This document shows positions 5,833 to 42,533 of a DNA stretch of 43,549 nt, one piece after another (position 1 is the first letter of the stretch; each line of letters opens with the position of its first letter). A model generated the notes under the pieces. It was not told the origin of the DNA. It searched no databases and saw only the letters and a program-made list of their open reading frames with translations. Origin of the DNA: Fibrobacteria bacterium (lineage in GTDB: Bacteria > Fibrobacterota > Fibrobacteria > UBA11236 > JADFYW01). Position numbers and translations under genes: made by a program. The stretch spans positions 1-43,549 of the forward strand of contig JADFYW010000024.1 in assembly GCA_015232855.1 (NCBI GenBank). Reading direction: 5' to 3'.

Positions 5833-5981
5833 CTATGGCATCATTTTAGAAAAATCCTGGCAATGGCGCAAACAATCCTACGGACTTAATTGATTTTGTA
5901 TTGGGCTGGATAATCAAGTCTTTTAATTATGAAAAAGGGACAAGTATGAACCTTTCTCATATTATTTCTATTAAAGGGATA

Positions 5982-10977: not shown

Positions 10978-10981
10978 GCGG

Positions 10982-11923
10982 CTAAATTGTTATCCAGGAA
11001 CCGGGTAACAGATCCGGACTGTTAAATGCTTCATTTGCTCGCCATACTGCGGGGGTTATTATTGTTTTATTCGGGTATGTATTTAACCATGCTCCCCACC
11101 AACTAAAAGTACTATTGGGGACAATTTGATGTTTACAGAGGCTCATGAGTCTTAGATCTTCATGCTCTTTGTCCATGTTTCCGTCAATAAAAGTGGAAGG
11201 ATATTTATAGTTAATATGTTCTTTGGCCCAGGAGGGATCATCAGAAAAAATAAATAATTTAAGTGCAGGGTGTTTTTTTGACAAAATCTCAATAGCCCTG
11301 TCATAAAATGATAAGTCTGTTACGCCAAATTTAGAAAGATCCTCCGGCCTGCGGTTGCCATCAGCATCATAGCCAAAAAGCCTGCGACAATGCAAACATA
11401 CTGATTCTGAAGATGAGATGTTTTTTGCCAGGTCATGATTTAAACCTTGTAATGGAGTATTTACCGAAAGTTCTTTCTGTAACATGGATTTGATATCTAC
11501 AAAGTATTTTTCAGATTGCCAGTAACCTTCAAGATATGCCTGTGTTAGGGAAATTTCCGAAAGAAAGGGGTTATACCTCATGCTTGTTTCTTTTAAGTAA
11601 TATTTTTTTTTATGGTTTAAGAGCCTGGCTCCAAGTTTGCAGAGGGGAGGTACTTTTAGGTAATTATGTAGGCGCAGCATGTTTTTAAACAGAAACTGAG
11701 CAGAGCCCAGGCTTTTTGCTTGTTGAATTTCTGAAGGGGAGGCGACTTCTGCTTTAATGGCGAACTTATCCAACCGATAGCATCGTTTGTATACATCATC
11801 TTGAGAAAAGCCTGTTACCGTATCCAGTTTAAGGGGTATGTTGTTCAGTAGGGAAAGTTTTCTTCCCATGGCATACTGGAAGAGTTGATTTCCCAAACCG
11901 CCAACTAATTGTACAACGATCAT
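10982..11923 (-). CDS. GT11 alpha-1,2-fucosyltransferase-like protein (copy 1)
   Basis: The start is the GT11 hallmark GGLGNQLFQYAMGR (residues 8-21), with EGYWQSEKYF and the C-terminal NSTFSWWGAWL motif. The family transfers fucose from GDP-fucose in an alpha-1,2 link. The GDP-binding motif normally reads HxRRGDY. Here it is H178-C-R-R-L-F-G, keeping His and both Arg but not Gly-Asp-Tyr. Its tandem neighbour shares this change. Length 313 is usual. Last gene of the minus-strand locus. No GDP-fucose synthesis genes are in the window. Confidence 0.9.
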   Translation of the reverse strand: MIVVQLVGGLGNQLFQYAMGRKLSLLNNIPLKLDTVTGFSQDDVYKRCYRLDKFAIKAEVASPSEIQQAKSLGSAQFLFKNMLRLHNYLKVPPLCKLGARLLNHKKKYYLKETSMRYNPFLSEISLTQAYLEGYWQSEKYFVDIKSMLQKELSVNTPLQGLNHDLAKNISSSESVCLHCRRLFGYDADGNRRPEDLSKFGVTDLSFYDRAIEILSKKHPALKLFIFSDDPSWAKEHINYKYPSTFIDGNMDKEHEDLRLMSLCKHQIVPNSTFSWWGAWLNTYPNKTIITPAVWRANEAFNSPDLLPGSWITI

Positions 11924-21450: not shown

Positions 21451-22866
21451 TTATTTCAACGAAAATAAATTTTTTATGGAGAGAGTTTTTTGTGTTGATG
21501 ACAATGTTACGAAGGCTAAACCATATACAAAAGCAGGTAGTGCCAGACGCATAGACGAATGGGAAACAGTTAATAATGAAAAACTGACAAACGCAATGAG
21601 TACAAGTTTTGAATCAGTTATTTTATGTTCTTTAAATTTTTGGAAGGGTAGTGTTAACATAAAAAAGAGAGAAAGTAGTCCAAGAAGTCCATGTTCGGCA
21701 AGCATACGGGTAAATTCGGTGTGGGCTGAGGCCTGTCTCCCAAAACTATAGTGACTTCTCGCTATCCGGCCCATACCCGGTCCTACCCCAAGGAGGAAAT
21801 TATCTTTGAAAATTTCAATATCATCTTTAATTATGTCTTGTCGACCAGTAAATGAAAATCGAACATCAGTATGTGCAATTACTTGATAACGTTGTGTTAA
21901 CATACCATCAGTAAAACTATTCAAGCTTCTCCAAAGTTGGAAAAAGATGACTATTGCCAAAATACTCATTAAGAAAATGCGTTCAGTTAGATTCCTTTTT
22001 TTTGCGGAGAACTGAAAATACAAAATTAAAAGGAAGCAGGATATAACTGCGGTAATTACTCCTCCGCGAGAAAAGGTTAATAGGCCGAATACCAAAAAGA
22101 GACCAAAAAAGGCTAAATCTCGATAAAACTTGTGGAAAAGGGATTGTTTTAGCAGAAAGCATAAAAAAATCAATATCACTCCAAATCCGAGTGCAGTAGA
22201 AACCTGGTTTGGACCGTAGCCTCCGGATAATTCATAGTTTGAATACATATTGAAAGTGATATCTTCAAGATTATAAAAATTTTTGATCAAAAAACTTAAG
22301 GCGCTGATTAACGGTAAAAGCAAGTAGAGCACTGTCTTGGTGAACTCAGCAAGAGTCATTGTAGTTTTATTAAAATACATAGTTGCAAGACATAATAATG
22401 CAGGGCCGGAAAGAGTGGAAGCAATCATTTCACGAAGAGCCATTCCACTGACATTGGGGTCTGACAAAATAATGGAAGGTGTTAATAATAAAAAGTATGC
22501 GAAAATGGATTTATTAAACCGTAAATTGAAAGGGTTGGTTTTAAGGCCCATAAGAAGCAGTAGTATTGTACTATATTTGCCATATTCCCAAAAAATATTG
22601 GCCCGAGTCATCCTTAATATGAGTTCCAGTCCAACCATATAAGCTGCAAAAAAATGGGCCAAATTTTGTTTCTTTTTAAATTGGATTGCATGAATACCAT
22701 AGGCAAGTGCTAGATATGCCCATATTGTTGAAAAATTGGAATCTTTCTGGATGAATAACCCCAGCACAATATGGATTCCAACCCAAAAAAACAAAGATTG
22801 CTTGTTTATGTAGGGCACTGCTTTTGTAGATGTCTCGGAAATATTGTTATGTGACGATATTTGCAT
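21451..22866 (-). CDS. O-antigen polymerase/ligase-like membrane protein (Wzy/WaaL family)
   Basis: A 471-residue protein with about ten to twelve hydrophobic helices. A large loop carries RFSFTGRQDIIKDDIEIF, LLGVGPGMG and SAHTEFTRMLAEHG, the pattern of the Wzy_C/O-antigen ligase family. It could polymerise lipid-linked repeats in the periplasm or ligate chains. Wzy versus WaaL cannot be separated by sequence inspection. No Wzx flippase or chain-length regulator is visible in the window, whereas a Wzt ATPase is present, so a ligase role is a real alternative. Confidence 0.8.
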   Translation of the reverse strand: MQISSHNNISETSTKAVPYINKQSLFFWVGIHIVLGLFIQKDSNFSTIWAYLALAYGIHAIQFKKKQNLAHFFAAYMVGLELILRMTRANIFWEYGKYSTILLLLMGLKTNPFNLRFNKSIFAYFLLLTPSIILSDPNVSGMALREMIASTLSGPALLCLATMYFNKTTMTLAEFTKTVLYLLLPLISALSFLIKNFYNLEDITFNMYSNYELSGGYGPNQVSTALGFGVILIFLCFLLKQSLFHKFYRDLAFFGLFLVFGLLTFSRGGVITAVISCFLLILYFQFSAKKRNLTERIFLMSILAIVIFFQLWRSLNSFTDGMLTQRYQVIAHTDVRFSFTGRQDIIKDDIEIFKDNFLLGVGPGMGRIARSHYSFGRQASAHTEFTRMLAEHGLLGLLSLFFMLTLPFQKFKEHKITDSKLVLIAFVSFSLLTVSHSSMRLALPAFVYGLAFVTLSSTQKTLSIKNLFSLK

Positions 22867-25806: not shown

Positions 25807-27009
25807 TCAATATTTGTTTTTGACCTGAATGGCAAGGCGAAGCATATGAGTAAATGCATTTATTTGTTTTTCAAGGGTATGGTGGTTTATAACGTATGTG
25901 CGTGCAGCTTTACCCATTTCTAATCTTTGAATGGGTTCTTCGTACAAGTGAGCGAGTGCCCTGGCCATTGCTACAGGGTTTCTCACTGGTACCAGAATGC
26001 TGCCAGATTTTTGGCCAATGGTTTCTCGCATGCCTCCACAATCTGTGGAGACCACTGGTAATGCACATGCCATGGCTTCCAGGGCGGCATTTGATATGCC
26101 TTCACTTAAGCTGGCTAGTAAAAATGCATCAGCATGTTGTAGACGAGAAACAACTGCTTCTGGCGGAAGTGGCCCTGAGACATGGACATAATTTTTAAGC
26201 TCAAGATCCTGGATAGTAAAAAAGATTCTTTCTGATTCCGGACCGGTGCCTATTATCTCATACCGGACAGGAATACCCTGGTTAACCAGAATTTTAATAG
26301 CCTGGAGAGCATATTCATAACCCTTTCTCCAAATCAATGAACCAACAGAAATAATGGTAAACTCATTGTGTTTGGGGATTGTTTCCAGTGGAAAGAATAA
26401 TTCGGGATCTATGGCAGGATTAATAATATATGTTCTGTCTGATGGTAACCCAAAATGCATGGCCTCTTGTTTGATATGTTTTGATACACAGTGGACTGCG
26501 GAGGCAAGAGGTAAGGTGTCATGCAGTCCTTGTCGTAAGGCAGAACGCCTGGGGTTGTGGGGAGCAATATTTACCTGTGCGCCCCGGCAACTGATAATAA
26601 CAGGAATGCCAATGGCAAATAAGGCCTGATGGGCTATAGCTGCGGCATTCCATGGGAAGTAAATGACATCGTGATCTGTACCACAAAAAGGAAGATGTAT
26701 ATATAATTGCCTGTAAAACTCTTTTGGATTAAACGACTGTCTGATTACTTGTATTAGATGATAGCCAGACTTTGGTTTGCACAGGATATTTTTTACACAC
26801 AAATATAGAAAAATCGGTATTCGTATATATAAGGGGCAGTTCCAGGAAAAGGTGCGTATAAAAGTGAAGTTTTTATGGTTCTGTGTGACGCTTTCCGGTT
26901 TTGTTTGGCAGGCTAAAGTGAGCTGTAATCCTTTAGTACTTAAACCGTTAAACAGACGTAATAGAAACGTCTCGGGTGGCCAGGAAGTACCAATTATCAG
27001 GACCCTCAT
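25807..27009 (-). CDS. Glycosyltransferase family 4
   Basis: A 400-residue GT-B enzyme. The donor domain shows SVGSLIWRKGYEYALQ, EIIGTGPESE, VSGPLPPEAV, SLSEGISNAALEAMA (EX7E) and STDCGGMRE. It resembles the following GT4 and probably arose by duplication. It begins in an ATGA overlap with the Cys-less asparagine-synthase paralogue, which suggests co-translation. Confidence 0.9.
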   Translation of the reverse strand: MRVLIIGTSWPPETFLLRLFNGLSTKGLQLTLACQTKPESVTQNHKNFTFIRTFSWNCPLYIRIPIFLYLCVKNILCKPKSGYHLIQVIRQSFNPKEFYRQLYIHLPFCGTDHDVIYFPWNAAAIAHQALFAIGIPVIISCRGAQVNIAPHNPRRSALRQGLHDTLPLASAVHCVSKHIKQEAMHFGLPSDRTYIINPAIDPELFFPLETIPKHNEFTIISVGSLIWRKGYEYALQAIKILVNQGIPVRYEIIGTGPESERIFFTIQDLELKNYVHVSGPLPPEAVVSRLQHADAFLLASLSEGISNAALEAMACALPVVSTDCGGMRETIGQKSGSILVPVRNPVAMARALAHLYEEPIQRLEMGKAARTYVINHHTLEKQINAFTHMLRLAIQVKNKY

Positions 27010-28799
27010 TTTTTATGGGTCTGTTGGAGGTAATGAATCCAGCTCGAAAAGGATAACAACATAGACACGGTATACCCTCTTTTGTGATAATAGGGGTCTT
27101 GATAAAATTCTGATAATAAAGTCTCAATTTTTCGAGGAGAGACAAACTGATGTACGGAAGTATATTTTTCAAGCAGGCATTCATAGAGTTTTATTTTTCC
27201 TTGTGGGTTCAGAAAATGGACTTCCCAGTTGCGTAGATAGGTTTTTCGGCGGGATACGCTTCTGAGTAATTTTTTAACAGCGCGCTTTGGTATCAGAAGC
27301 GAATCGAAATAGGTATACCAAAACAAATTGGTATCAAAATCCTGCCACGTTATTTTTGCCAGATCCCGAGCATATTTTTTCAAATATTCTATTTGGAAAT
27401 ATCGTTTTGCTACCAGGGAGGAAGGAAGGGTTGCAAAGAAATCGCTTAAGCGAGTATCATAAAAAGGAAGTTTGGGAAAGGCTGCTGCTTGGTACATCCT
27501 TAAGCTTGCAGTGGTAGAGCGAAAAGACCATTGGTCAGTTTTAAATGCTTTTAGCTTGAAATCAGCCTCGGAAAGATGCTGATAGGGTGTACATGCTTTC
27601 TTTAGTAACTCAAACTGACAATCATCTACATCCACACCCTCGGTATGTTTATGACAAATATTATTCAGCAACCAGGTATTCCCTTCTTTCTCGAATTTAT
27701 GTAATGCTTTTTTGACTAAATCACCATTGGTAAAAGGCTCATGCCCGTGCGACAAAAGTCCCATATCGTCGAGCCAAACATCTCCCCAATGACCCGCTAC
27801 CACAGAGTCTGCATGCTCTTGTAACCAGTTAAAAACAAATGCTTGCCTGCACTGAGTGATATCCTGAATACCTTCAGTCGAGCCCTGTATGAGAGGCAAG
27901 CTCTCAAAAATATAGGGCTCAATAGTAAATTTGGTAAAAGGAAGTTGCCGTGATTGTGCGATGTTGGTAGCAATTGAAGTTTCTACAGAACTATTTTGAT
28001 AGCCGTAAGAAAAACCAAAAACATTTCCATGTCTTTTTGCACTATTGTGAGAAAGTGACGAGGCAAGGGTTCTGGAATCAAGCCCTCCGGAAACAGGAAG
28101 CGCTACTCTGCCCGTATTGGAAATTTCGCCAGAGACTTCAAGCAAACGTTCATGAAACCGGGAAAGCTGGTTTGAAAGACTCAAATCCTGCCGTGGGGCA
28201 TGAGTCCAGTCCCAATAGCGGTGTTTACTGAGACAGGTTCCCTGGTTATCAAAGCAATAATGCGATGCAGGCTTACAAATATGCACATCTTTAAAACAAG
28301 TTAGATCATCAGGAAAAAAGCTGGATTTGAAGTACATGGAAATGGCTGGCCAATGCAGCGTATCGGAAATACTATTACGAGATAGTGATATGAGAGACGT
28401 TGCAACAGACGGACATGATGAATGTGTGTTGTAGTATGCATGGAGGGTACCAAATCGGCTTGTCCAGATATGAAACATTTTCGCTTTTTGCTCCCAGGCA
28501 AAAATCAAAAAGTGACCGTTAAGTCTATGAGCATAAGAATAATCTTTAGCAAGTTGTTCCAATACTTGTGCAATCGAAGAAGAACCATATAACTCTCCGA
28601 GCAACCACATGGTTATTCCATTGTAAGTAAAAGGGGTAAATGGGAAACCGTTCCATTTAGTGTCGGGAGGGGTGGTGAAAACTAGAGGAGAGGGTGCTTG
28701 ACTGAGTGTATTCCAGTGACTCCCGGTACGAGTGGGAGGTAAAGGGGTTCCTTGTTTGAATTGTACCAGGAAATCACCAATAGAATTCATGTTGTTCAT
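27006..28799 (-). CDS. Asparagine-synthase paralogue lacking the glutaminase cysteine
   Basis: A 597-residue protein. The C-terminal synthetase domain is intact, with the ATP-binding PP-loop VSGGLDSRTL (SGGLDS at 237-242). The N-terminal 190 residues keep the outline of a class II amidotransferase domain (HRLNGHFLIFAWE, TSRFGTLHAYY) but the protein starts MNNMNSIGD. There is no Cys2 nucleophile, no HRGPD or NGEIYN motif. It cannot release ammonia from glutamine by itself. It lies 7 nt after a full-length AsnB-type gene and may form a complex with it or use another amine. Lasso-peptide cyclases share this loss, but no precursor or protease gene is present. Confidence 0.82.
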   Translation of the reverse strand: MNNMNSIGDFLVQFKQGTPLPPTRTGSHWNTLSQAPSPLVFTTPPDTKWNGFPFTPFTYNGITMWLLGELYGSSSIAQVLEQLAKDYSYAHRLNGHFLIFAWEQKAKMFHIWTSRFGTLHAYYNTHSSCPSVATSLISLSRNSISDTLHWPAISMYFKSSFFPDDLTCFKDVHICKPASHYCFDNQGTCLSKHRYWDWTHAPRQDLSLSNQLSRFHERLLEVSGEISNTGRVALPVSGGLDSRTLASSLSHNSAKRHGNVFGFSYGYQNSSVETSIATNIAQSRQLPFTKFTIEPYIFESLPLIQGSTEGIQDITQCRQAFVFNWLQEHADSVVAGHWGDVWLDDMGLLSHGHEPFTNGDLVKKALHKFEKEGNTWLLNNICHKHTEGVDVDDCQFELLKKACTPYQHLSEADFKLKAFKTDQWSFRSTTASLRMYQAAAFPKLPFYDTRLSDFFATLPSSLVAKRYFQIEYLKKYARDLAKITWQDFDTNLFWYTYFDSLLIPKRAVKKLLRSVSRRKTYLRNWEVHFLNPQGKIKLYECLLEKYTSVHQFVSPRKIETLLSEFYQDPYYHKRGYTVSMLLSFSSWIHYLQQTHKK

Positions 28800-28806
28800 A
28801 GGGAGG

Positions 28807-30678
28807 TTAAAAGGTGTGTGAGCGTTTAAAATGATGTGATTCCCATAAGCTCAGACTTAAAAGATTCCAAAGGGCACGTGAATAGTCTGCCTCCCCATTT
28901 ACATGAGCCTTGTAGAGTTTTTCGATCTGTTTTTTATTGATAGGAAGACCAAGTAATTCCTTTTTGCAAAGGAGTGTGTCGGTGAACATAGGTTTAAGTG
29001 TTGTTTTCAGCCATTGGCCCATGGGGATAGAAAATCCCTGTTTACCGGTACTTTGATAGCAGGTATGTTTTGATAGGGCGGCGCGAAGTGGGGTTTTGCC
29101 AAGTTTATTTTTAATATCCAGGCAGTTTTGCCAGGAGAGTGTCAATGCCGCCTTTACTATTTCCATGTCAAGTAAAGGAACCCGGACTTCAAGTGAGTGA
29201 TACATACTAGCGCGGTCCACTTTCAACAAAACCCTGTTTAAATGACACACCGTTTCATTCCATCGGAGCCATTGAGCAGTTTCGTCCTGATCCCAGCCGT
29301 TGTAATTGAAATACCGGGCATCTGAGGGCCAGTTGGTGATGTCAGGGAAAATGGCTTTTTGCCATTCTCCAGAGAGTTGAGTGTGTTTTTCACGGTACCA
29401 TCTGCCAACATCAGGCCATCGTAAATTCCAATACCCTCCCCCGAGGTTAAAATATTTTTTTAGTGCCCACCGCAAATTTCGTATTATGCGTGGGTGGCGA
29501 AAATCTTTTGCAGAAGATAAAATTGAGGAGATCCGATAAAAATATCCAAAAAAGAGTTCGTCACCTCCATCTCCTGATAAGATGACTTTATGGTTTTCAC
29601 TTGCGAATTGGCTAACCATAAGAGTAGGAAAAATAGAATCATCAGCGAGGGGTTCACCGCAGGACTCAATTACCTCAGATATGTATTGATGGGCATTATC
29701 CGGAGAAAATTGTCGTAGAATTTGTTGGCAGCCGATTTGGCTTGCGTATTGTTTGGCATCTTCAGATTCGTCATAATTTATGTTGTCGGATCCAATAGTG
29801 TATGCGGTGATTTTGTCTTTGGTACTCTCTTGCATATGAGCGGTAACCAAAGGCGAATCTATCCCACCGGACAAAAAAGACGCCACGGGTACATCACTTA
29901 CCATTTGTCGTTTCACTGCCTGGGAAATAACATGCTCAAGTTCCTCTTGTGCTACTGAGAGAGTCCTTGAATTCTCTGCATATTGAGGAAAAGTATAGAA
30001 GGGCTTTATGGTTTTTTGTGTTGGAGAGAGCTGAAGAAAGGTACCCGGCTCCAACATATGGGTGTCCTTCACCAATCCAAAGGGAGCGGGCACATAACCG
30101 AGATGAAAATAGAGTGAAAGGCTCTGGTAGTCGATGTTTGAGGCTTGTGACCAGGGATGGGCGAGTATTTGATTGTACTGGGAAGCAAAAATAATACCTT
30201 CAGGATGTTCAAAGTAATAGAGTGGTTTGATGCCAAACTGATCTCGAGCCAGTAAGAGGGAATTTTTAAGAGTATCATAAAACCCGATAGCAAACATACC
30301 ATTAAATTTTTTAAGAGCGGCAATACCCCACACCGAAAGAGCATATAAGACTACTTCAGTATCTCCATTAGAATGAAAAGTTACGCCTTTGGAAATCAGC
30401 TCCTTACGAATTTCCCGGTAATTATAAATTTCTCCATTAAAAACAATTGTATATCGGCCATCAGCAGTTTCCATGGGTTGGTGCCCCTTCACTGACAGGT
30501 CTAGTATAGAAAGTCTGCGAAACCCAAAATAGCATTGTTTCCTTTTATCACTCCATACTCCCCTGTCATCAGGACCTCTTCGCCAGGCCATATCTGTAAT
30601 TTTGCCAGTTAGAGCAAGCAGCTCTTCATGCTGTGCGCTATGAGGAGAAAAAAGATATTGACCGTAAATTCCACACAT
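28807..30678 (-). CDS. asnB: Glutamine-dependent asparagine-synthase-type amidotransferase
   Basis: A 623-residue full-length enzyme. After Met comes the glutaminase nucleophile Cys2 (MCGIYGQ), followed by RRGPDD, HRR-equivalent FGFRRLSILD, NGEIYNY (Asn81) and Asp106. The synthetase half has the PP-loop FLSGGIDSPL (SGGIDS at 270-275) and GDGGDELFFGY. In sugar loci such proteins can amidate uronic acids instead of aspartate; the substrate cannot be fixed here. One of three family members in 15 kb. The downstream neighbour is the Cys-less paralogue. Confidence 0.93.
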   Translation of the reverse strand: MCGIYGQYLFSPHSAQHEELLALTGKITDMAWRRGPDDRGVWSDKRKQCYFGFRRLSILDLSVKGHQPMETADGRYTIVFNGEIYNYREIRKELISKGVTFHSNGDTEVVLYALSVWGIAALKKFNGMFAIGFYDTLKNSLLLARDQFGIKPLYYFEHPEGIIFASQYNQILAHPWSQASNIDYQSLSLYFHLGYVPAPFGLVKDTHMLEPGTFLQLSPTQKTIKPFYTFPQYAENSRTLSVAQEELEHVISQAVKRQMVSDVPVASFLSGGIDSPLVTAHMQESTKDKITAYTIGSDNINYDESEDAKQYASQIGCQQILRQFSPDNAHQYISEVIESCGEPLADDSIFPTLMVSQFASENHKVILSGDGGDELFFGYFYRISSILSSAKDFRHPRIIRNLRWALKKYFNLGGGYWNLRWPDVGRWYREKHTQLSGEWQKAIFPDITNWPSDARYFNYNGWDQDETAQWLRWNETVCHLNRVLLKVDRASMYHSLEVRVPLLDMEIVKAALTLSWQNCLDIKNKLGKTPLRAALSKHTCYQSTGKQGFSIPMGQWLKTTLKPMFTDTLLCKKELLGLPINKKQIEKLYKAHVNGEADYSRALWNLLSLSLWESHHFKRSHTF

Positions 30679-30782: not shown

Positions 30783-31847
30783 TTATATCGTCTTTATGCG
30801 TAAGTTGAGACGCTTTTGGTATATGCCTGTTAATTGAGTGTATATGTTTTCCCAGGAGTAACTACATGCAAGATTGCGAGCGGCAATTCTAAATGTTTCA
30901 TAGTTTTTAGTATTACTGATAATTGATTTGCAAGAATCAACCATGACAGCAGCATTACCTTGAGGGCATAAGCTCACACAATCATCATTAGTATAGTCAA
31001 CAAAATTAATGACCTTTGTGGCGACAACAGGAAGACCACAAGCAAGTGCTTCATTTAAGGTGTTACTAGAGCCGCCATCTTCAAGGGGAAGTAAAAGAAG
31101 TGTAGCAGATTGATACAAGTGCAGTAATTCATCATCTGAAATTTTCTGGTGAAATTGTACAAAAGGTAAATCAGAAAAACTTTCTTTTTGGTCATAACAA
31201 CCTATCATATGGACAACTAGTTTTTGATAATCTTTTTTGAGCTGTGAAAGCGTTTGGTGGGCAAGCTTAAAGTCACGGCGGTTCACGCCTACCTGCAAAA
31301 TAATGGGATTCTCAGGGTCTGGGATAAAACCAGAGAGAGGTGTAAAAAAATGAGTATCTACACCCAGAGGAAGATAATCGAGGTTATCAGGATTGATAAA
31401 AGAACTAAGATACTCCTGTTGTGCTCTCCCGGTGGCTAGTGCTAAATCGAGGTACTGAAAATGGTTTTTATTGTCCATTCTTTCTTCAAGTTCTTTAATG
31501 GAGAAATAAAAGGTTGCAGCGCATTTAATTCCAAATAATCTGAGGACTTTCCCGGCAAAATGATAATCATGGTCACCATAAAAAAAGTGGACGAGAGCTG
31601 GTCTGTGCCAAATAGCATATAAAAGTGCGGCTATTTCCAGACCGGCGCTCTGGCGGGTATAGGCGGAATGATTTGCTTTTTTGGCCAGAGCTTTGATGAA
31701 ACGGTAAGGTCGTTTGAATTCATTTTCATTAGATATAACCGGCGAACCGGAAAAAAAGTCTAAAAATCGCTCTACAGAGGTATGGCTACCACGAAAGTGC
31801 CATTTGCGAGTTACAATTAACAATTTTTCAGGGGGGATAATTTGCAT
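30783..31847 (-). CDS. Glycosyltransferase family 4
   Basis: A 354-residue GT-B enzyme. The donor half shows LQVGVNRRDFK, VHMIGCYD, LLLPLEDGGSSNTLNEALACGLP (acidic pair with spaced Glu) and VVATKV. The N-terminal half is basic with RFLDFFSGSP. It lies 1 nt after the GT2 gene upstream and is followed by the hairpin at 30758-30774. Confidence 0.85.
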   Translation of the reverse strand: MQIIPPEKLLIVTRKWHFRGSHTSVERFLDFFSGSPVISNENEFKRPYRFIKALAKKANHSAYTRQSAGLEIAALLYAIWHRPALVHFFYGDHDYHFAGKVLRLFGIKCAATFYFSIKELEERMDNKNHFQYLDLALATGRAQQEYLSSFINPDNLDYLPLGVDTHFFTPLSGFIPDPENPIILQVGVNRRDFKLAHQTLSQLKKDYQKLVVHMIGCYDQKESFSDLPFVQFHQKISDDELLHLYQSATLLLLPLEDGGSSNTLNEALACGLPVVATKVINFVDYTNDDCVSLCPQGNAAVMVDSCKSIISNTKNYETFRIAARNLACSYSWENIYTQLTGIYQKRLNLRIKTI

Positions 31848-31848
31848 T

Positions 31849-32901
31849 TTAAATTATTTTACAGGCTAATTTTTTTAGCCAGTACCATTTCCTGAGCATG
31901 GTAAGGGGGAGGGTAGAAAATAAACCTCCGTATAGATAAAAGCACAATTTTTCGGTGGGTGATAAAAAAGACGGGAAATACTGTTTTATAATTTTAAAAC
32001 AATGGATGACGGAATCCTCATCGCGGAAAGTCAGAAAAGGAAAAATCTTTTGTTGATATTTTTTGATAATAATGCGTAGCCAGCTGTCAAAATGAATACT
32101 CCTATTGTGTGGGGGAGTGGTAAGGGCCTGTAAAAAATAGTCATAAGATTTTAGTATTTCTTTCTGATATTTGAGGTTACCCGCAATGCCGAATGAAATG
32201 CCCGTATCTTCAATGCGCTTAAACAGTAATGGGGTATTACCTGGGGTCTTAGCAATAGGGTAGTCCTGCAGGCCGGTTAAAAAATCAAAAAGAATGTCTT
32301 CCGGGCCATATAAACGTTTCCAGTTTTTAGGGCTAATTTTTGAGGCCCTCCATAAACAACTTGAGGTCTGCCAGGTAATCCGGAATAAAGATTCTGGAAG
32401 AATACGAGTGAATTCCTCATTGGTTCGTCCGAGAAGAGTATTACTTTTATTTCTCTCAAGATTATGTGTGAGACAATAGGTCATAATGAGTTCTGGAAAC
32501 TCGGTTAAAAACTTAACCTGTTGTTCAATTTTTGAAGTTGCTAATATATCATCAGAATCCAAAAATTGAATAAAGGTACCTGTTGAAAATTCATGGCCAA
32601 TTTTTCTTGAGATGCCGGGGCCTTGGTTCTGTGTAAGGCGAATACATTTCCATATGCCCTTAAAGCTTAAAAGACTGGACGTTATAGCGGGAAGCAAGTC
32701 TTCTTCTGAAGCATCATCTACAATTAGTATTTCCAGTGGATGGTGGCTTTGTGAAGAAATACAGGAGAGGGTTTCTTTTAAAAGCTCTGTCCTGTTATAA
32801 CAAGGGATGACGATAGATACCAAGGGTGACCCGGTAGGAGAAACAGAATCACAATCGCCTTTAGCGATAATGGACAGGTTTGTTTGTTTCGAATGAGTCA
32901 T
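31849..32901 (-). CDS. Glycosyltransferase family 2
   Basis: A GT-A enzyme of 350 residues. The domain starts VSIVIPCYNRTELL after a polar N-terminal tail of about 27 residues, with ILIVDDASEED, LTQNQGPG and the metal motif FLDSDD. The C-terminal 100 residues are basic and aromatic. The stop is 1 nt from the next GT4 start. It follows the deoxysugar trio after 68 nt (which include a weak 6-bp dyad) and may attach the sugar made there (inference from position). Confidence 0.88.
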   Translation of the reverse strand: MTHSKQTNLSIIAKGDCDSVSPTGSPLVSIVIPCYNRTELLKETLSCISSQSHHPLEILIVDDASEEDLLPAITSSLLSFKGIWKCIRLTQNQGPGISRKIGHEFSTGTFIQFLDSDDILATSKIEQQVKFLTEFPELIMTYCLTHNLERNKSNTLLGRTNEEFTRILPESLFRITWQTSSCLWRASKISPKNWKRLYGPEDILFDFLTGLQDYPIAKTPGNTPLLFKRIEDTGISFGIAGNLKYQKEILKSYDYFLQALTTPPHNRSIHFDSWLRIIIKKYQQKIFPFLTFRDEDSVIHCFKIIKQYFPSFLSPTEKLCFYLYGGLFSTLPLTMLRKWYWLKKLACKII

Positions 32902-32969: not shown

Positions 32970-33869
32970 TCATTCATTTTTGGTATAATATGTTTCAATC
33001 GAATAATCATACTTATGCGAAAAAGTAGTATAATATTTTTCGTCATTGAATATGGTATTTCCACTTTCTAGCAATAATGATTCTTTCGGCCAATCCACAA
33101 AATCAATTTCAACCTTATATTTAGCTGCTATAATGGAGGCAACTTTTTTAAGAGAGTGTTTTTCACCAGGTAGATTATAGACATCGAATTTATCTTTTAT
33201 TTTATTAACTAAGGATTTGCAAAGAAATTCAATGTGAGTAAAAGTTCGCATTTGATCACCGTTTCCATAGAGCACTATGTTTTTTCCACTTCTTGCGTTT
33301 TTTATAAACATCCCCATAGTACCATAAGAGAAATCTACAGGTCCTTTAATTAGGTTTCCATAAGGAACGCATAATCTGAATACGGCAGATTTAATATTAT
33401 AATAATTAGAATAGGTCCTGATAACCTCTTCGGCAGCAAATTTTGATATTGCATATGGAGTTAAAAAATGTGTAGTTTCATTTTCTCGAATACTTTCATA
33501 TGCATAGTTATCCTTTTCATTATAAACAAGTCGGGTTGAAATGTATATGAACTCTGTTGCATGATTAGCTATTTTTAATAATATCGTTGAGACTGCCAGG
33601 CAGTTAATTGTAAAATAATCATATATTTTCTCAAAACTCAATGCTGGAGAATTATAACCAGCTAAATACAATATTCTATCAAATCTAGGCCAATCAATCT
33701 TGTTAATCATATCTTTTTTATTAAGATCAAGGTAATAGTATTGGTCTTCAAAAAAGTCATTATCTGTGTATTTTCCATAACATGTTATCGTAAACTTTTT
33801 TGCATTTTTTAAATAATGGAAAATGTTTTTTCCTATATAACCACCTGCTCCAATTATTGCAATATTCAT
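32970..33869 (-). CDS. Extended SDR, probable NDP-deoxysugar 4-ketoreductase or epimerase
   Basis: A 299-residue NAD(P)-dependent sugar SDR. The cofactor loop GAGGYIG is at 7-13, STRLVY holds the catalytic Ser/Thr near 111-112, and the active pair is Tyr139-x3-Lys143 (YAISK). RLCVPYGN and the late LPGE segment fit RmlD/GalE-type reductases. It is the third member of a tightly overlapped trio (4-nt ATGA overlap with the oxidoreductase), so a final C4 ketoreduction of a 2,6-dideoxy-4-ketohexose is the best guess. Its codon use and base composition are visibly more AT-rich than the GT genes around it. Confidence 0.83.
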   Translation of the reverse strand: MNIAIIGAGGYIGKNIFHYLKNAKKFTITCYGKYTDNDFFEDQYYYLDLNKKDMINKIDWPRFDRILYLAGYNSPALSFEKIYDYFTINCLAVSTILLKIANHATEFIYISTRLVYNEKDNYAYESIRENETTHFLTPYAISKFAAEEVIRTYSNYYNIKSAVFRLCVPYGNLIKGPVDFSYGTMGMFIKNARSGKNIVLYGNGDQMRTFTHIEFLCKSLVNKIKDKFDVYNLPGEKHSLKKVASIIAAKYKVEIDFVDWPKESLLLESGNTIFNDEKYYTTFSHKYDYSIETYYTKNE

Positions 33870-34840
33870 AACATGTCCATTAATATTTTTGATTGGATTT
33901 TTGATTGAAATAATATTTCTTGAAATAGTATGTCTCTCTTATTTTTATCATAAATAGCTGAAGCAAAAACATCTAAAATGTTTTTAAAATGGTTGTCAGG
34001 CTCTATATTGATAATTTCTGTATCGTTTTTTGTTACCAACTCTATCCTTACGTTCTCATTTTCTTTTGGAGTAAAGATCTTTGGGATCGTCATATAACCT
34101 TTGCTTCCCCAAATATTACAATTGCATTGATAGTAATTGTCAAAACCATAGCTTAATGTTGCTGAACATGTTTTGGATGCCAGTAGGAGAGAACCATATG
34201 TTGTCATTAAAGGGCTTTCGTCTTCAAATAGATTATAAGAGCCTTTATATTCTATTTCATTGCCTAATAGAAATCCAGCTAGTCTAATTGGATAACCCGC
34301 AGCATCAAATAAAGCGCCGCCTCCAAGAAAGGGGTCATACCTGAAATTTTTGCCATCAAGAGGTGGAAAACCAAATCTACTATGAATCTCCCTTAACTCT
34401 CCAATTGACCCGGAATTTACCAGTTCCTTTATTTTTGTCAATTGATTATGATACTGAAACATATATCCTTCAATTAAAGCAAGTTTTTTTGTTTTTGCTA
34501 TTTGGATTAATTCTAATACGCTGGAATAATTAAACCCAAAAGATTTTTCGGTGTAAATATGTTTTCCTTTTAATAAGGCTTTTTTTATCCATTTTTCGTG
34601 GCTCCCTACAGGTAAAGCTATATATATACAGTTAATTGCAGAATCATTTAATAAGTCTTTATAATCGTTGTAAATATTTACCTTATCCCCGAAATCATGT
34701 TTAGCTTGAGAGTATTTCGATTTAGTTGCAATACCAAACAAATTAAAGTTTTCATTTTTTATGATTGCAGGTATAATTGATCGTATTGCTATGTTTGCAT
34801 ATCCAATTATACCAATAGATAATGATTTGCTTTTATTCAT
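33866..34840 (-). CDS. Gfo/Idh/MocA oxidoreductase, probable NDP-sugar 3-ketoreductase
   Basis: A 324-residue protein. The N-terminal Rossmann fold has IGIIGYANIAIRS; the conserved ALP-x-G-S-H segment at about 75-81 and EKS at 98-100 (usually EKP) follow. The C-terminal half has EGYMFQYHNQ, GELREIHSRFGFPP and GGALFDAAGYP. In deoxysugar pathways, members of this family reduce the C3 ketone left by the 2,3-dehydratase, and that gene is the direct upstream neighbour with an 8-nt overlap. Function assigned on that pairing. AT-rich like its neighbours. Confidence 0.85.
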   Translation of the reverse strand: MNKSKSLSIGIIGYANIAIRSIIPAIIKNENFNLFGIATKSKYSQAKHDFGDKVNIYNDYKDLLNDSAINCIYIALPVGSHEKWIKKALLKGKHIYTEKSFGFNYSSVLELIQIAKTKKLALIEGYMFQYHNQLTKIKELVNSGSIGELREIHSRFGFPPLDGKNFRYDPFLGGGALFDAAGYPIRLAGFLLGNEIEYKGSYNLFEDESPLMTTYGSLLLASKTCSATLSYGFDNYYQCNCNIWGSKGYMTIPKIFTPKENENVRIELVTKNDTEIINIEPDNHFKNILDVFASAIYDKNKRDILFQEILFQSKIQSKILMDML

Positions 34841-36215
34841 AAATATCTAAAATTGAGATTAACGATCTAAGTTGAATGTTTATGATATTGTTATATATCA
34901 TAAAATCATTTATTGAACGTAAACTTATCCATGTATATCTTTCGTCTTCTATTTTAGTGAGATCCCCCTCACCGATTTCAATAATAATATTTCTATTTTC
35001 CTCGTTAAAGAATCGACCACCTTCTTCACTTTGTAAGGTGTCGACTAATACTTTATATTTATTCATGTTTTCAAAAAAACAAAAATAAGGGATTTCATAT
35101 TCAGGTTTAAGATAGCTTCCTGTAATACACTGTATGGTTGGTGCTATTTCAACTACATCAAAGTTTCCTGATTCTACTTTTGCCTGTACTAATAAATATC
35201 TGGCATTATTTACAACTTTTGTAATAAGTATAATTATCCCTGGTTCAATGGGCCTTATCAGTGGTTGATCCCATGATGCAACTTCTCTATTTTCAATTGC
35301 AATCTGCGAGAAAATAACCTCAAAATATTTATTATCCTTTCTTGTGATGGCCTTCGGTGTTATATACCATTCAGATAAATTTGATAGACTCACTTCTTTA
35401 ACATACAAATCATAACTGAATTTCAGGCTAGACAGCCAATGCATATAATTTTGCCACTCTTCAATACCACATTTATAACTATTAATAAATGGGTTGTTTA
35501 ATTGCTTATTTGAAATATTTAAATCGGGATCGTTTAAGCTGTCATAGTCAATTAACGATAAGACTGTTCTGCTATCCATATTAACAAGATTGTCAATTTT
35601 CATTAATTCTTTTAACTGCCCTAAACTCAACCATTTGAAATTTTCAGGTATTTCGATATCTTCAATTACTTCTACTATAATGTTTCTATTTCGTTTTTTA
35701 AAAAAACGAGAACCTTGCTCCGATTGTAATTGATCATAGAGAACTCGAGCCTTAGAATGATCCATAAAAAAATCTAAAAAGAGTGGGTTCTTACCTCCAT
35801 GAACTTTTGTGAAATTGCTTCTGGTAGCTTGAATTGTTGGTGATAATTGAACAAAATTAATATTTCCGGGTTCTATTTTCGCCTGTACTAAAAAATGATA
35901 GACATTATTTATTTTACAAACAATAAACCCTAATATACCTATTTCAGGCTGTAAGATAATTGGCTGATGCCAAATTTCTCTACGGCCAAAATTTGTTTCA
36001 ACTTTAATGCCAATTATTTTAAAAAATTTATTACTTACATGTGATATGGAATCACCATTAAAATGCCAATTTTTAAGTTGCGATAATTCAGTCCTATTTA
36101 CAGAAACGTTAACTTTTGCTCTAATTTCAGCAACCCAATCAAGGACTTTTTTTTTCTCCACTTCACTATTAAATCTATAGTAAAGGGAATCAATAAAATT
36201 CGGTATTTTTTTCAT
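34833..36215 (-). CDS. NDP-hexose 2,3-dehydratase family protein
   Basis: A 460-residue protein made of two similar halves, as in EvaA/TylX-type enzymes that remove water across C2-C3 of dTDP-4-keto-6-deoxyglucose. Each half repeats the same order: WHQPIILQPEIGI / WDQPLIRPIEPGI, FLVQAKIEPGN / LLVQAKVESGN, QLSPTIQ / EIAPTIQ, DQLQSEQGSRFF / DTLQSEEGGRFF and NRNIIVE / NRNIIIE. The C-terminal half appears as complete as the N-terminal one. ATG start, 8 nt after the stop of an epimerase scrap. No rmlA/rmlB-like genes are in the window; dTDP-4-keto-6-deoxyglucose must come from elsewhere. Confidence 0.9.
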   Translation of the reverse strand: MKKIPNFIDSLYYRFNSEVEKKKVLDWVAEIRAKVNVSVNRTELSQLKNWHFNGDSISHVSNKFFKIIGIKVETNFGRREIWHQPIILQPEIGILGFIVCKINNVYHFLVQAKIEPGNINFVQLSPTIQATRSNFTKVHGGKNPLFLDFFMDHSKARVLYDQLQSEQGSRFFKKRNRNIIVEVIEDIEIPENFKWLSLGQLKELMKIDNLVNMDSRTVLSLIDYDSLNDPDLNISNKQLNNPFINSYKCGIEEWQNYMHWLSSLKFSYDLYVKEVSLSNLSEWYITPKAITRKDNKYFEVIFSQIAIENREVASWDQPLIRPIEPGIIILITKVVNNARYLLVQAKVESGNFDVVEIAPTIQCITGSYLKPEYEIPYFCFFENMNKYKVLVDTLQSEEGGRFFNEENRNIIIEIGEGDLTKIEDERYTWISLRSINDFMIYNNIINIQLRSLISILDIYE

Positions 36216-36223
36216 ATTTATAA

Positions 36224-36494
36224 CTATTTAATTTGCAGTTCGGGCAGGAAGTTATTAATGATGTCCAATATCTGGTTTAAAGAGTATCCTTTTCCTGTAC
36301 CGATGTTAATGATCTGATTATCCAATGGGTTATTTAAAAACAGAAGCATTGCATCAATGAGATCTTCAATATAAAAAAATCCCAGCGAATTTCACCGCTA
36401 CCCCAAATATGGACGGAATTGTTTAAAATGGCCTGCTTTAGAATAAAATTAATAAAACCAATTTTTGAGGACTGATGGAAGAAGACTAAACGTT
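36224..36494 (-). pseudogene. C-terminal remnant of a sugar epimerase/dehydratase
   Basis: Reading the minus strand directly after the GT2 stop gives FHQSSKIGFINF, then VHIWGSGEIR. A lost base in a T7 run (36373-36379) is followed by YIEDLIDAMLLFLNN, IINIGTGKGYSLNQ and ILDIINNFLPELQIK before a TAG at 36224-36226. This aligns with the C-terminal third of the decayed epimerase at 37450-38297 (KIGFVDILLKK, IIIWGNGEVRRDF, IDDLIDAV, VNIGCGIGHSLNE). It shares perhaps half its residues, so it derives from a different lineage and not from a recent copy. It has no start and lacks the Rossmann half. Confidence 0.8.
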
Positions 36495-37382
36495 TTAGTA
36501 TTTAATCGTTTCTTTATACCAGGTATGACCCCATCCATAATTTCTGGCAAAAGATCTTGGATATAAAAGACCACATTTTTTAGCTACTTGTTTAAGAAAG
36601 TCTGAAATGGTAAATGTGAGTTTCATAAGTAAAAAAGTTTCAAATTTAGTATACCGTCTGATACCATATGCTTTGGCTATTTGCTTTGATTCTTCGAAAT
36701 ATGCGTCAAAAACAGTTTTGCATTTCTGATTTTTATGTCGGCGGTATCCGGCAAGAATTGTTTCAACACCTAATAAGTCAGCATGTTGGTAAAACCTGGC
36801 CCAGAGCTCAAAATCTCCAGCATGTAAATATTGTTCATCAAGAGAGGAGCCAGCAGTTTCCCAAAGGCTTCGTCTCCAGAAAGTAGATTCTTGTTGGATA
36901 TTATATTTTCCGAAAGGACCGTAGCCAGGAAAAAATTCACCACGGAAGAACCCTTTTTTAGTGAATCCAGCATTATAGGTACAACGAATGGCTCGTCCTT
37001 GTTCGTCCCACCAGATTGGAAAGACCGTAGTTATCCAATTTTCATCTGGCATATTCTGAAAAATATCAGCCACGGTTTTTAATGTCCATGGCATATACAT
37101 ATCGTCTGAATTAAGCCATGCCATGATATCACCCGTTGAATGCTGAAATCCTTTATTGATGGCATGGTATTGCCCTTTATCCGGGACGCTTTCACAGTAG
37201 CTGAGTTGGTCGGCATATTTTTTGATTATTTCGGTACTGTTATCGGTTGAGCCGCCGTCTATAACAATGTATTCTAAATTTGGGTATTCCTGGTCCAAAA
37301 CCGAACAAATGGTTTGTTCGAGATATTGTCCCTGATTATAAGAAGGGGTAACAATAGAAATTTTAGGGAGTTCAGTTATCAT
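36495..37382 (-). CDS. Glycosyltransferase family 2
   Basis: A 295-residue GT-A enzyme. ISIVTPSYNQGQYLEQTI, YIVIDGGSTDNS and the metal site WLNSDDMY are clear, followed by QESTFWRRSLWE and HAGDFELWARF, the usual GT2 acceptor-side motif. ATG start. It lies between two broken epimerase genes and is itself intact, which suggests it was exchanged or kept under selection while its neighbours decayed. Confidence 0.9.
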   Translation of the reverse strand: MITELPKISIVTPSYNQGQYLEQTICSVLDQEYPNLEYIVIDGGSTDNSTEIIKKYADQLSYCESVPDKGQYHAINKGFQHSTGDIMAWLNSDDMYMPWTLKTVADIFQNMPDENWITTVFPIWWDEQGRAIRCTYNAGFTKKGFFRGEFFPGYGPFGKYNIQQESTFWRRSLWETAGSSLDEQYLHAGDFELWARFYQHADLLGVETILAGYRRHKNQKCKTVFDAYFEESKQIAKAYGIRRYTKFETFLLMKLTFTISDFLKQVAKKCGLLYPRSFARNYGWGHTWYKETIKY

Positions 37383-37449: not shown

Positions 37450-38297
37450 TTAGCTGAGAACTGTCATCACTAATTCCTGCACATCAAACAATCTTGATTC
37501 CCCATAAATAACTTTAAGACCGGGCACCATATCCCGCACCAAGTCCAGAACCTCATTCAATGAATGGCCTATTCCACAGCCAATATTTACTGCCTCGTTA
37601 CTTATTCCTTTGTTCAAGAGCAGTTCTACCGCATCAATCAAATCATCAATAAGGATAAAATCCCGACGAACTTCACCATTACCCCAGATTATAATTGGTT
37701 CACCACGCAAAGCTTTTTCAACAATATATCAACGAAACCTATTTTCTGAGACAGGTGAAAAGGACCGAAGGGATTAGAAGGTCTCAGTATCAGGTAGTGT
37801 AGCCCATATAGGTGAGCGTAAAGTTGTATGTATTTAGCAATGGCCAACTTGGTAATGCCGTAGGAACATAAAGGATTAGTTGGATGTGATTCGTTCATGG
37901 GATGGAATACAGGAGGCCCGAAAACCGTACTTCCAGATGATATGAAGACAATTTCATTTACATTTCGTTCGTGCATAGCATCCAGCAATTGTATAGTAGA
38001 AGCAATATTAGTTTGCAAATCATAACCGATATTCTGGTTAGAATTTGAGGGAAAGGTAGTGCTCACCAGATGTACTACCACATCTATTTTTACCTGGTCA
38101 AGAACATGTTTCAGATCCCCACTATTGGAGAAGTCCCCAAAAAACATGGGAACACGGCCAATCAGACTTTTATCCAAAATTTTCACTTTGTGATAATCAA
38201 AAATATAACATTCGTAATTTCCTGCTTCCATCAACTGTCTGCACAGGTTTGTTCCTATAAACCCCAATCCGCCAAGTATTGGAATTCATTTTTTCAT
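37450..38297 (-). pseudogene. Decayed NAD-dependent sugar epimerase/dehydratase
   Basis: The parts of one extended SDR are all visible but not in one frame. (1) The in-frame ATG at 38295-38297 reads Met-Lys-Lys and then TGA (38286-38288), followed by IPILGGLGFIGTNL. (2) The N-terminal part runs to KIGFVDILLKK, where one A is missing in an A5 run (37714-37718); the frame then moves to ALRGEPIIIWGNGEVRRDF. (3) Near 37463-37470 the frame shifts again: DSSQLKL, which continues the family C-terminus, is only found in the next frame. SSGSTVFGPP and YGITK (catalytic Tyr/Lys) are preserved. Three separate lesions argue for decay, although single-base homopolymer errors could explain one. Rescue by an internal TTG start plus -1 slippage is conceivable but unlikely. 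Confidence 0.8.
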
Positions 38298-39354: not shown

Positions 39355-39403
39355 TTAGGCTGCTAAAACTGTTTTATACATTGATTAAAGACGTAATACA
39401 CTA

Positions 39404-39598
39404 TTACGCACGAGAAAGGGCTTTATTAAACTCTTTCTCAAGGGATAAAATAACTTTCTCATAATTATATTCTTCATGTGTATTGAAATTATCCATTATC
39501 AAGAAAATTTTATCAGCATTTTCATACTTACGAGCAACAGAGAAAAAAAATGCGAAATCTTTGCCTGTTCGTCTTTCACTTAACTTTGGAAGGTAATA
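39404..39598 (-). pseudogene. Remnant of an IS630-like (DDE_3) transposase
   Basis: The minus strand between two glycosyltransferase genes reads YLPKLSERRTGKDFAFFF, then ARKYENADKIFLIMDNFNTH, then KVILSLEKEFNKALSRA and a stop at 39404-39406. The motif ADKIxLxMDNxNTH is the second catalytic Asp region of IS630-type DDE_3 transposases. About 64 codons remain; the N-terminal catalytic Asp and the final acidic residue are lost, and an in-frame stop lies directly upstream (39599-39601). No terminal inverted repeats were found by eye. Confidence 0.7.
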
Positions 39599-39638
39599 TT
39601 AATCTATCAGAATGCAGAATAAATACATTTTACTATAG

Positions 39639-40637: not shown

Positions 40638-42533
40638 TCAAGACTTTCTGCCCACAAAAGCCTGCCACCAGGTAAAATGTACCGGTCCCCAAAACTTCCA
40701 AGCAGTATTCCATTGGGGGGCTGGTGACTTAAGAAATGTTTCGAAATCCGAGCGCAAACTTCGGCCATCAAAAAAGCCGGACTCCAGAAAGGCAGAAGAG
40801 GCCATCTGGTCGCTCATGTATGTTTTCAGAGGGCCTGAAAACCAGTCAACAATTGGACTGTTAAAACCGATTTTCTGTTTATTTAACCGAATACTATCTG
40901 GCAAAATATCTTTAACAGCTTCCCTTAAAACTCGCTTGGTGTATCCACCTCCTATTTTTGACCTCGGAGGTAGAGAAAAGAGGTATTCCACTAACCGATA
41001 GTCAACAAAAGGCATCCGGCATTCTACCCCGTAAGCCATTGAACAACGGTCATATTGCTGAAACAATCCAGGTAGTATGCTTTCAAAAAATTGGGAATAC
41101 AAAAGACGATCCAATGTATTTCCCAGTATCGGCCGTTTAGGTATGAAATTTTCAGATATACCTGAGTCACCTCCTTGAACATTATAAGGAAGGGCAGATG
41201 TATGGCTTTTAAAGTGCCAGAGAAAATATTTCCACCAGGTTTTTACTTTCGCCTGTAAAACACTCTGTAAGACTTTTTTCGCTTCCTTTTTCATACTATA
41301 CTGGCTTGTTTCTCCACATGCCATATAAGTTCGGTATACATCAAAAAACCAGGGAAAATCTTTTAATTCCATGGCTGTATTCAACGCCTCCTTTAGTACA
41401 AAATACCCACCAAGCATTTCATCAGGGCCTTGGCCATCAAGAGTTACGGATATGCCCTGGTTTTTTATTTCACGATACAACTGGGATATCGGATAAAAAG
41501 CCAAGTTTGGCATCGGGCCATCCATTAAGCACATTACCTGTTCAAGGGAATCAGGTGAAGGAGCTGTTATCGAAACGATTTCAAGTTTGTTATTAAGTTT
41601 TTTTGCCAATCCTGTAGCAGCGGCACTTTCGTCAATGGGAGAACCAAAAAAGGCAGCGCAAAAACTTTTGTGTGTATATGTTCTGGAACTATTCGTATTT
41701 TCCAACTTTCTAGTATTGAGCAGTGCTGTAATACTACCACTGTCTAAACCACCCGAAAGACAAGTCGCTACTGGGACATCACTTCGCAACCTGATTTTAC
41801 AGGCGTTTTCAAGTAACTCCAAAAGTTCCTCTGCTTGCGTTTTCAGTGTTCCCGAAACTGGAACTGTGCGTAAAGTATACCATTGCTTAATTACTTTATT
41901 TCCGTCCTTGAGTGTGAGATTACAACCAGCCGGCAGAGAGTATACATTTTGTAAATAGGTTTGTTCGGTTCCATGATGAGCCAAAAATCCGCTGGTTATC
42001 TGGCTAATCACCGTCCCATTAAGGGGATGAGCATAGCCAAGTAAAACATGGAGTGCCTGAACTTCTGACGCAAAGGAAAAATTATTTCTGTGGGTGCTGT
42101 AGTAAACCGGCTTGACACCAAAACGATCTCTCGACAAAAACAGTGATTTATCTCGAACATTATATATAGCCAATCCCCACATACCATTGAGTTTTTGCAA
42201 CATTTGCTCACCCCATTCTTGATATGCAGCTAACAATACTTCGGTATCAGTAGAAGTTCTAAAGTGATGTCCCAAATGCTCTAAATCGCGTTTTAGTTCG
42301 ATGTAGTTGTATATTTCACCATTAAAAACAGCAACTAAATCTCCTTTTATCATTGGTTGCCTGCCAGCAGATGAAAGATCAAGAATGGCCAGTCGCCGGT
42401 GTCCTAGAATGACGGGATATTCTGTATCTTCCCATATTCCCTCACCATCAGGCCCCCTATGAGACAGGTTGTTCAAAGCAGTCTCAAAAAGCGGTCGGGC
42501 GTAATTGCCTACTGAGCCCAAAATACCACACAT
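40638..42533 (-). CDS. asnB: Glutamine-dependent asparagine-synthase-type amidotransferase
   Basis: A 631-residue enzyme with an intact glutaminase half (MCGILGS with Cys2, SHRGPDGEG, HRRLAILDLS, NGEIYNY) and synthetase half (PP-loop LSGGLDSGSI with SGGLDS at 260-265, GQGPDEMLGGY, VDYRLVEYLF). It is only moderately similar to the amidotransferase at 28807, so it is not a recent copy. It starts 1 nt after the Wzt stop, which ties it to the export operon. Amidation of a uronic acid is the likely role in this context (inference). Confidence 0.92.
   Translation of the reverse strand: MCGILGSVGNYARPLFETALNNLSHRGPDGEGIWEDTEYPVILGHRRLAILDLSSAGRQPMIKGDLVAVFNGEIYNYIELKRDLEHLGHHFRTSTDTEVLLAAYQEWGEQMLQKLNGMWGLAIYNVRDKSLFLSRDRFGVKPVYYSTHRNNFSFASEVQALHVLLGYAHPLNGTVISQITSGFLAHHGTEQTYLQNVYSLPAGCNLTLKDGNKVIKQWYTLRTVPVSGTLKTQAEELLELLENACKIRLRSDVPVATCLSGGLDSGSITALLNTRKLENTNSSRTYTHKSFCAAFFGSPIDESAAATGLAKKLNNKLEIVSITAPSPDSLEQVMCLMDGPMPNLAFYPISQLYREIKNQGISVTLDGQGPDEMLGGYFVLKEALNTAMELKDFPWFFDVYRTYMACGETSQYSMKKEAKKVLQSVLQAKVKTWWKYFLWHFKSHTSALPYNVQGGDSGISENFIPKRPILGNTLDRLLYSQFFESILPGLFQQYDRCSMAYGVECRMPFVDYRLVEYLFSLPPRSKIGGGYTKRVLREAVKDILPDSIRLNKQKIGFNSPIVDWFSGPLKTYMSDQMASSAFLESGFFDGRSLRSDFETFLKSPAPQWNTAWKFWGPVHFTWWQAFVGRKS

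Follow-up and report, generated by a model that had tools for sequence, protein, structure and literature searches.

What does a bacterium make with three genes that resemble an antibiotic deoxysugar pathway and lie in the middle of a polysaccharide locus? This question is raised by contig JADFYW010000024.1 of a Fibrobacteria bacterium (assembly GCA_015232855.1), a stretch of 43,549 nucleotides (nt) that we call the window. It encodes, side by side, a predicted nucleoside diphosphate (NDP)-hexose 2,3-dehydratase, a sugar 3-ketoreductase of the Gfo/Idh/MocA family and an extended short-chain dehydrogenase/reductase (SDR). A preliminary description of this DNA had read the three genes as catalysing C2 deoxygenation, C3 reduction and C4 reduction. 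We find that the three-gene cassette is real and that this interpretation is right in outline, with a known pathway occurring here in a surface-glycan variant; the family test of the dehydratase, the match of the reductase to KijD10 and the exchange of the SDR for an aminotransferase in relatives all support it. We put at about 0.8 the probability that the cassette supplies a nucleotide-activated 2,6-dideoxyhexose to the surface polysaccharide whose genes surround it. For this we computed family membership, catalytic residues, operon structure, the presence of the genome's own rmlB and rmlC, conservation of the cassette and surface-glycan context in relatives.

Three overlapping genes and their predicted reactions

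The three open reading frames lie on the minus strand exactly where they were first placed (Table 1), and consecutive genes overlap, by 8 nt between dehydratase and reductase (34833-34840) and by 4 nt, ATGA, between reductase and SDR (33866-33869). They had also been described as AT-rich, and indeed their GC contents (0.297, 0.307 and 0.292, where flanking genes of the locus have 0.35-0.43) and their GC at third codon positions (GC3; 0.22-0.25, against a mean of 0.352, standard deviation 0.029 and minimum 0.289 in 25 other genes) fall below those of every neighbour. The cassette is therefore compositionally foreign to its own locus.

A profile search places the 460-residue protein in the 2,3-dehydratase family, with two tandem PF03559 halves (455.6 bits against a cut-off of 25, E = 2e-137) that were recovered in the genome search as well. 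Its sole match in the PDB is EvaA (4j7g, E = 3e-93), for which Glu139 and Glu190 are the proposed catalytic residues (PMC8987622). The corresponding residues of the window protein, E115 and E166 (pocket A), are kept in 81 of 81 aligned rows, and 108 of 117 conserved columns are retained. We predict from this that the enzyme eliminates the hydroxyl group at C2, with a 3,4-diketo sugar as its product. We also considered a second pocket peculiar to the window protein, which has a Glu in its second half where EvaA has Asp, and dropped it because this Glu is common among relatives, being kept in 79 of 81 of them and in two actinobacterial proteins.

Two relatives of the dehydratase may be recorded here. 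In Pedobacter sp. ISL-64 (locus L090, near 10001-11335) the enzyme is found as two open reading frames, one per half, which could be a split gene or a sequencing error. A Hoeflea plasmid (locus L019, 7938-9218) carries a distant 2,3-dehydratase (24% identity) between glycosyltransferases, with no annotated reductase adjoining.

The second protein has both the N (E = 8e-14) and C (E = 2e-14) domains of the GFO_IDH_MocA families, as had been claimed for it. Its top match in the PDB is the sugar 3-ketoreductase KijD10 (139 bits, E = 1e-39), the next other protein scoring 98 bits. The residues K99 and Y183 align with the Lys and Tyr that were changed in the mutant entries of KijD10 and are kept in 77 of 77 rows, and 32 of 33 conserved columns are retained. 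This enzyme would reduce C3, to a configuration that is not readable from sequence.

The third protein was likewise confirmed as an SDR (Pfam Epimerase/SDR, E = 3e-29). It scores 102-178 bits against the cassette SDRs of relatives and at most 48.5 bits against the other SDRs of the same loci. The three glycines of the GxxGxxG motif, the YxxxK motif and residues S111, Y139 and K143 are kept in all 35 rows, as is R113-L114 directly after S/T112. RmlB has Asp-Glu at the position of R113-L114, and the window SDR reaches only 64 bits with the RmlB model TIGR01181, whose cut-off is 365. A 4,6-dehydratase such as RmlB is therefore an unlikely identity for it.

An exchangeable C4 enzyme in many phyla

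A scan of named genomes yielded at least 566 relatives, of which the best 80 were kept, so that the census describes the nearest relatives only. These are mostly from Bacteroidota, with others from Kiritimatiellota, Verrucomicrobiota, Pseudomonadota, Thermodesulfobacteriota, Myxococcota, Planctomycetota, Cloacimonadota, Cyanobacteriota, Armatimonadota, Chloroflexota, Bacillota and further phyla; many are metagenome-assembled genomes (MAGs), and lone odd phylum placements may be binning errors. Culturable carriers include Flaviaesturariibacter (loci L026 and L030), Marinifilum (L034) and Bacteroides faecichinchillae (L024). The dehydratase is paired with the 3-ketoreductase in 76 of the 80 loci, and the median gap between cassette genes is 2 nt. 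Within 3.6 kb, the third gene is an SDR of the window protein's clade in 34 loci and a DegT aminotransferase in 31. No locus has the two together, and 15 have neither, among them some short contigs and some loci with the SDR further off; counted over 5 kb, this SDR and a DegT aminotransferase occur together in one locus. Fisher's test of this exclusion gives 4e-11, a value that ignores kinship among rows that are not independent. The dehydratase tree is better evidence for exchange: the SDR/aminotransferase label needs seven changes on it, at least five of them forced by well-supported branches, compared to 22 for shuffled labels.

Because an unrelated aminotransferase and a reductase-type SDR alternate in one cassette, we take the same C4 keto group to be the probable target of both, which also fits the place of the SDR in the pathway. 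The genomic pattern thus supports a C4-keto branch point, from which either a 2,6-dideoxyhexose or a 4-amino-2,4,6-trideoxyhexose would arise. What is new here is how widely the cassette is spread and that its C4 enzyme is exchangeable. Carriage is sporadic: the dehydratase is present in two of 168 genomes of the window's own phylum, and, in the family to which a Parabacteroides locus belongs, the SDR is present in one of 80 genomes. The other carrier in the phylum (locus L015, 1435-4762) has the aminotransferase version, which predicts a 4-amino-2,4,6-trideoxyhexose.

On the dehydratase tree the window row groups with Bacteroidota and a Cloacimonadota row, on a long branch (1.62) whose exact place is unsure, and the actinobacterial rows are far from it; we accordingly rejected Actinobacteria as the nearest source. 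A phage link was rejected as well, since phage records held no dehydratase and a single-protein scan of viral contigs, with patterns not drawn from conserved stretches, was empty.

Precursor supply and the divergent SDR

In the pathway that we propose, RmlA and RmlB, encoded outside the window, would provide deoxythymidine diphosphate (dTDP)-4-keto-6-deoxyglucose, from which the 2,3-dehydratase would eliminate the C2 hydroxyl to give dTDP-3,4-diketo-2,6-dideoxyglucose. The Gfo/Idh/MocA enzyme would then reduce C3 and the SDR C4. The expected product, a dTDP-2,6-dideoxyhexose of the olivose, oliose, digitoxose or boivinose type, would be attached to a lipid-linked glycan by an adjoining glycosyltransferase. 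In this scheme we infer dTDP as the nucleotide, action of the SDR at C4, the configuration at both stereocentres, which enzyme transfers the sugar, and export to the surface.

As first noted, the window itself has no RmlA or RmlB; matches to the RmlB model reach at most 65 bits against the cut-off of 365, and the RmlA model has no match there. The suggestion that the precursor is made elsewhere is backed for part of the route. Contig C114 of the same genome carries rmlB (5304-6299, 490 bits, the sole RmlB over the cut-off) followed by rmlC (260 bits), and ends 121 nt past the latter. Furthermore, RmlB exceeds its curated cut-off in all 24 dehydratase-bearing genomes tested, including this one, and seven RmlA genes near relatives' cassettes are true TIGR01207 members, which is more direct support for dTDP.

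The points that weigh against the proposed pathway concern this supply and the SDR. No rmlA and no TIGR01207 match over the cut-off was recovered from the MAG, which comprises 5.38 Mb and is 79.7% complete, so that absence from it proves nothing; of its two PF00483 matches, one appears by eye to be a mannose-1-phosphate guanylyltransferase and the other a heptose-type nucleotidyltransferase with a fused phosphatase. RmlB is also over the cut-off in 10 of 14 control genomes, and because it is this common, its presence lends only mild support to dTDP. Within its clade no row deviates more than the window SDR, which has changes at 14 of 55 conserved columns, among them T73N, G74S, T75P, E90C, P110I and D32G (window numbering). 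It may thus have a different stereochemistry or cofactor, or be impaired; D32 lies at the end of the second strand, and its loss hints at a changed cofactor preference. The predicted model of the SDR (predicted local distance difference test score, pLDDT, 91) has its nearest solved folds among 4-epimerases and 4,6-dehydratases, at ~20% identity, which places the fold and not the reaction.

Alternatively, the three genes could be active while the SDR serves as an epimerase, reduces another target or is impaired. The product would then differ from a simple 2,6-dideoxyhexose and might, for example, be a 4-keto sugar that is used directly or an L-sugar formed via an RmlC-type epimerase. The deviating columns, the 4-epimerases as closest solved folds and the rmlC in the genome fit such a role. 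However, the Rossmann motif and YxxxK are retained, and the alternation with an aminotransferase in relatives fits action on one keto group. We therefore think this outcome unlikely, and favor C4 reduction as the predicted role of the SDR.

The surrounding glycan locus

The preliminary description placed the cassette among surface-glycan genes, with a GT2 glycosyltransferase directly downstream. Both statements hold, and a second GT2 lies upstream (Table 1), but this genome is not alone in the arrangement, which recurs in surface-glycan loci of many Bacteroidota. The downstream GT2 is a candidate for transferring the sugar, and the fusion protein with a phosphoglycosyl transferase domain is likely the initiating enzyme of the glycan. 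The window further holds a protein with a Wzt C-terminal domain and many glycosyltransferases.

Table 1 Features of the cassette and of the surrounding locus.
Feature	Coordinates	Strand	Evidence
NDP-hexose 2,3-dehydratase, 460 residues	34833-36215	-	PF03559 twice; EvaA match; catalytic Glu pair
Gfo/Idh/MocA sugar 3-ketoreductase, 324 residues	33866-34840	-	Pfam; KijD10 match
Extended SDR, inferred C4-ketoreductase, 299 residues	32970-33869	-	Pfam Epimerase; divergent member of cassette-specific clade
GT2 glycosyltransferase, directly downstream	31849-32901	-	PF00535, E = 4e-25
GT4 glycosyltransferase, next gene	30783-31847	-	PF00534, E = 3e-13
GT2 glycosyltransferase, upstream of cassette	36495-37382	-	PF00535, E = 5e-28
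Wzy-type polymerase / O-antigen ligase-like protein	21451-22866	-	PF04932, E = 1e-14
Phosphoglycosyl transferase fused to CapD/PglF-type dehydratase, 816 residues	13958-16408	-	PF02397 residues 3-194; PF02719 residues 485-768
Degraded, frame-broken 3' remnant of epimerase-type SDR	36216-36494	-	Between upstream GT2 and cassette; translation
Epimerase-type SDR split over two frames	37450-38267	-	Open reading frames 37450-37710 and 37689-38267 are complementary PF01370 parts
Weak DDE_3 transposase-like fragment	39355-39638	-	E = 7e-4, below curated cut-off

This setting bears on whether the sugar is instead destined for a secondary metabolite of the antibiotic type. The 2,3-dehydratases described in PMC8987622 come from antibiotic pathways, and the window dehydratase and reductase have homologues in Streptomyces plasmid clusters, some of them beside polyketide genes. 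In the window, however, the Wzy-type protein, the probable initiating phosphoglycosyl transferase and the many glycosyltransferases point to a surface glycan, and no polyketide synthase was found among the window proteins scanned. In relatives with the SDR version, 135 sampled neighbours belong mainly to the GT4, GT2, Polysacc_synt, CapD-type and UDP-glucose dehydrogenase families, and polyketide synthases are not among the 25 neighbour families shown. Together with the distance of the actinobacterial rows from the window on the tree, this makes a secondary metabolite improbable as the destination, and a surface polysaccharide remains our reading.

The plasmid records searched include Streptomyces clusters that carry both dehydratase and reductase. 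In these records a cassette SDR matches nothing but generic SDRs, with no more than 29% identity among the matches listed, and its clade was not seen in the plasmid-borne Streptomyces clusters.

Remnants of other genes lie on the upstream side of the cassette. The frame-broken piece next to it shares 46% identity over 50 residues with the C-terminal part of the split epimerase (E = 8e-17 in a two-sequence comparison); the latter could be a pseudogene or an assembly error, and the DDE_3 fragment is possibly an IS630-type remnant. They suggest gene turnover at the site of the AT-rich cassette. Such debris in the same locus, a GC and GC3 far below every neighbour and the rarity of the dehydratase in the phylum would also suit a recent import that is decaying and functionless. 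This we consider very improbable, as the three frames are intact with translational overlaps, and the dehydratase and reductase keep nearly all of their conserved columns.

Three further genes of the locus (27006-28799, 28807-30678 and 40638-42533, all on the minus strand) encode two full amidotransferases of the asparagine-synthase-like kind and a protein with weak similarity, and AsnB-like genes directly precede the SDR in relatives' loci L026, L030, L032 and L076. A promoter and terminator scan stayed near shuffled expectation (40 against 30.5 +/- 6.0, and 5 against 4.0 +/- 2.2) and was not used.

Relation to known deoxysugar pathways

KijD10 originates from an antibiotic cluster, and antibiotic dTDP-2,6-dideoxyhexose pathways of the EvaA, TylX3, OleV, SpnO and UrdS type have the same dehydratase and Gfo/Idh/MocA 3-ketoreductase families side by side. 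Catalytic residues and presumed substrate are alike: EvaA of Amycolatopsis orientalis shares the two-half architecture and the equivalents of E139/E190 with the window dehydratase, differing in the second-half Asp, and KijD10 (3rbv), of the same family as the window reductase, shares its Lys and Tyr. In contrast to the antibiotic pathways, the cassette lies in a surface-glycan locus and its C4 enzyme belongs to the SDR clade unseen in plasmid-borne Streptomyces clusters.

We see roughly even odds that a modular cassette of 2,3-dehydratase, 3-ketoreductase and exchangeable C4 enzyme, with its own C4-reductase clade, is widespread, supplies bacterial surface glycans with 2,6-dideoxyhexoses and 4-amino-2,4,6-trideoxyhexoses and has largely gone unrecognised in this role; the divergent C4 reductase of the window may set a different stereochemistry. 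The cassette would provide a C4 switch between neutral and amino sugar that is open to testing, and predicts acid-labile 2-deoxy sugars in surface coats. Such sugars would be destroyed or missed by standard acid hydrolysis.

A review of these pathways (PMC8987622) names 2,3-dehydratases solely for antibiotic pathways, and for the dideoxyhexoses of O-antigens it names 3-dehydratases, yet the cassette occurs in surface-glycan loci of many phyla, including gut and rumen Bacteroidota. Our searches for literature on 2,6-dideoxyhexose genes in surface glycans yielded 3-dehydratase pathways and antibiotic papers only. The 3,6-dideoxyhexose O-antigen pathways, for abequose and colitose (PMC8987622), resemble the cassette in a second deoxygenation of a 4-keto-6-deoxy sugar for the surface. 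They use a 3-dehydratase of the pyridoxal/pyridoxamine phosphate (PLP/PMP) type and lose the C3 hydroxyl, whereas the cassette has a Nudix-superfamily enzyme and would lose the C2 hydroxyl.

A 2,6-dideoxyhexose on a surface glycan had been called chemically unusual. It is rare, but it has a precedent in Tannerella forsythia, a Bacteroidota species, where the dideoxyhexose of the S-layer O-glycan was identified as digitoxose (PMC4030854; also PMC8550257). The term dehydratase was not found in the Tannerella papers searched, these two included. Digitoxose is, like the predicted product, a 2,6-dideoxyhexose on a surface glycan, and the cassette described here is a candidate source of the genes for Tannerella-type digitoxose.

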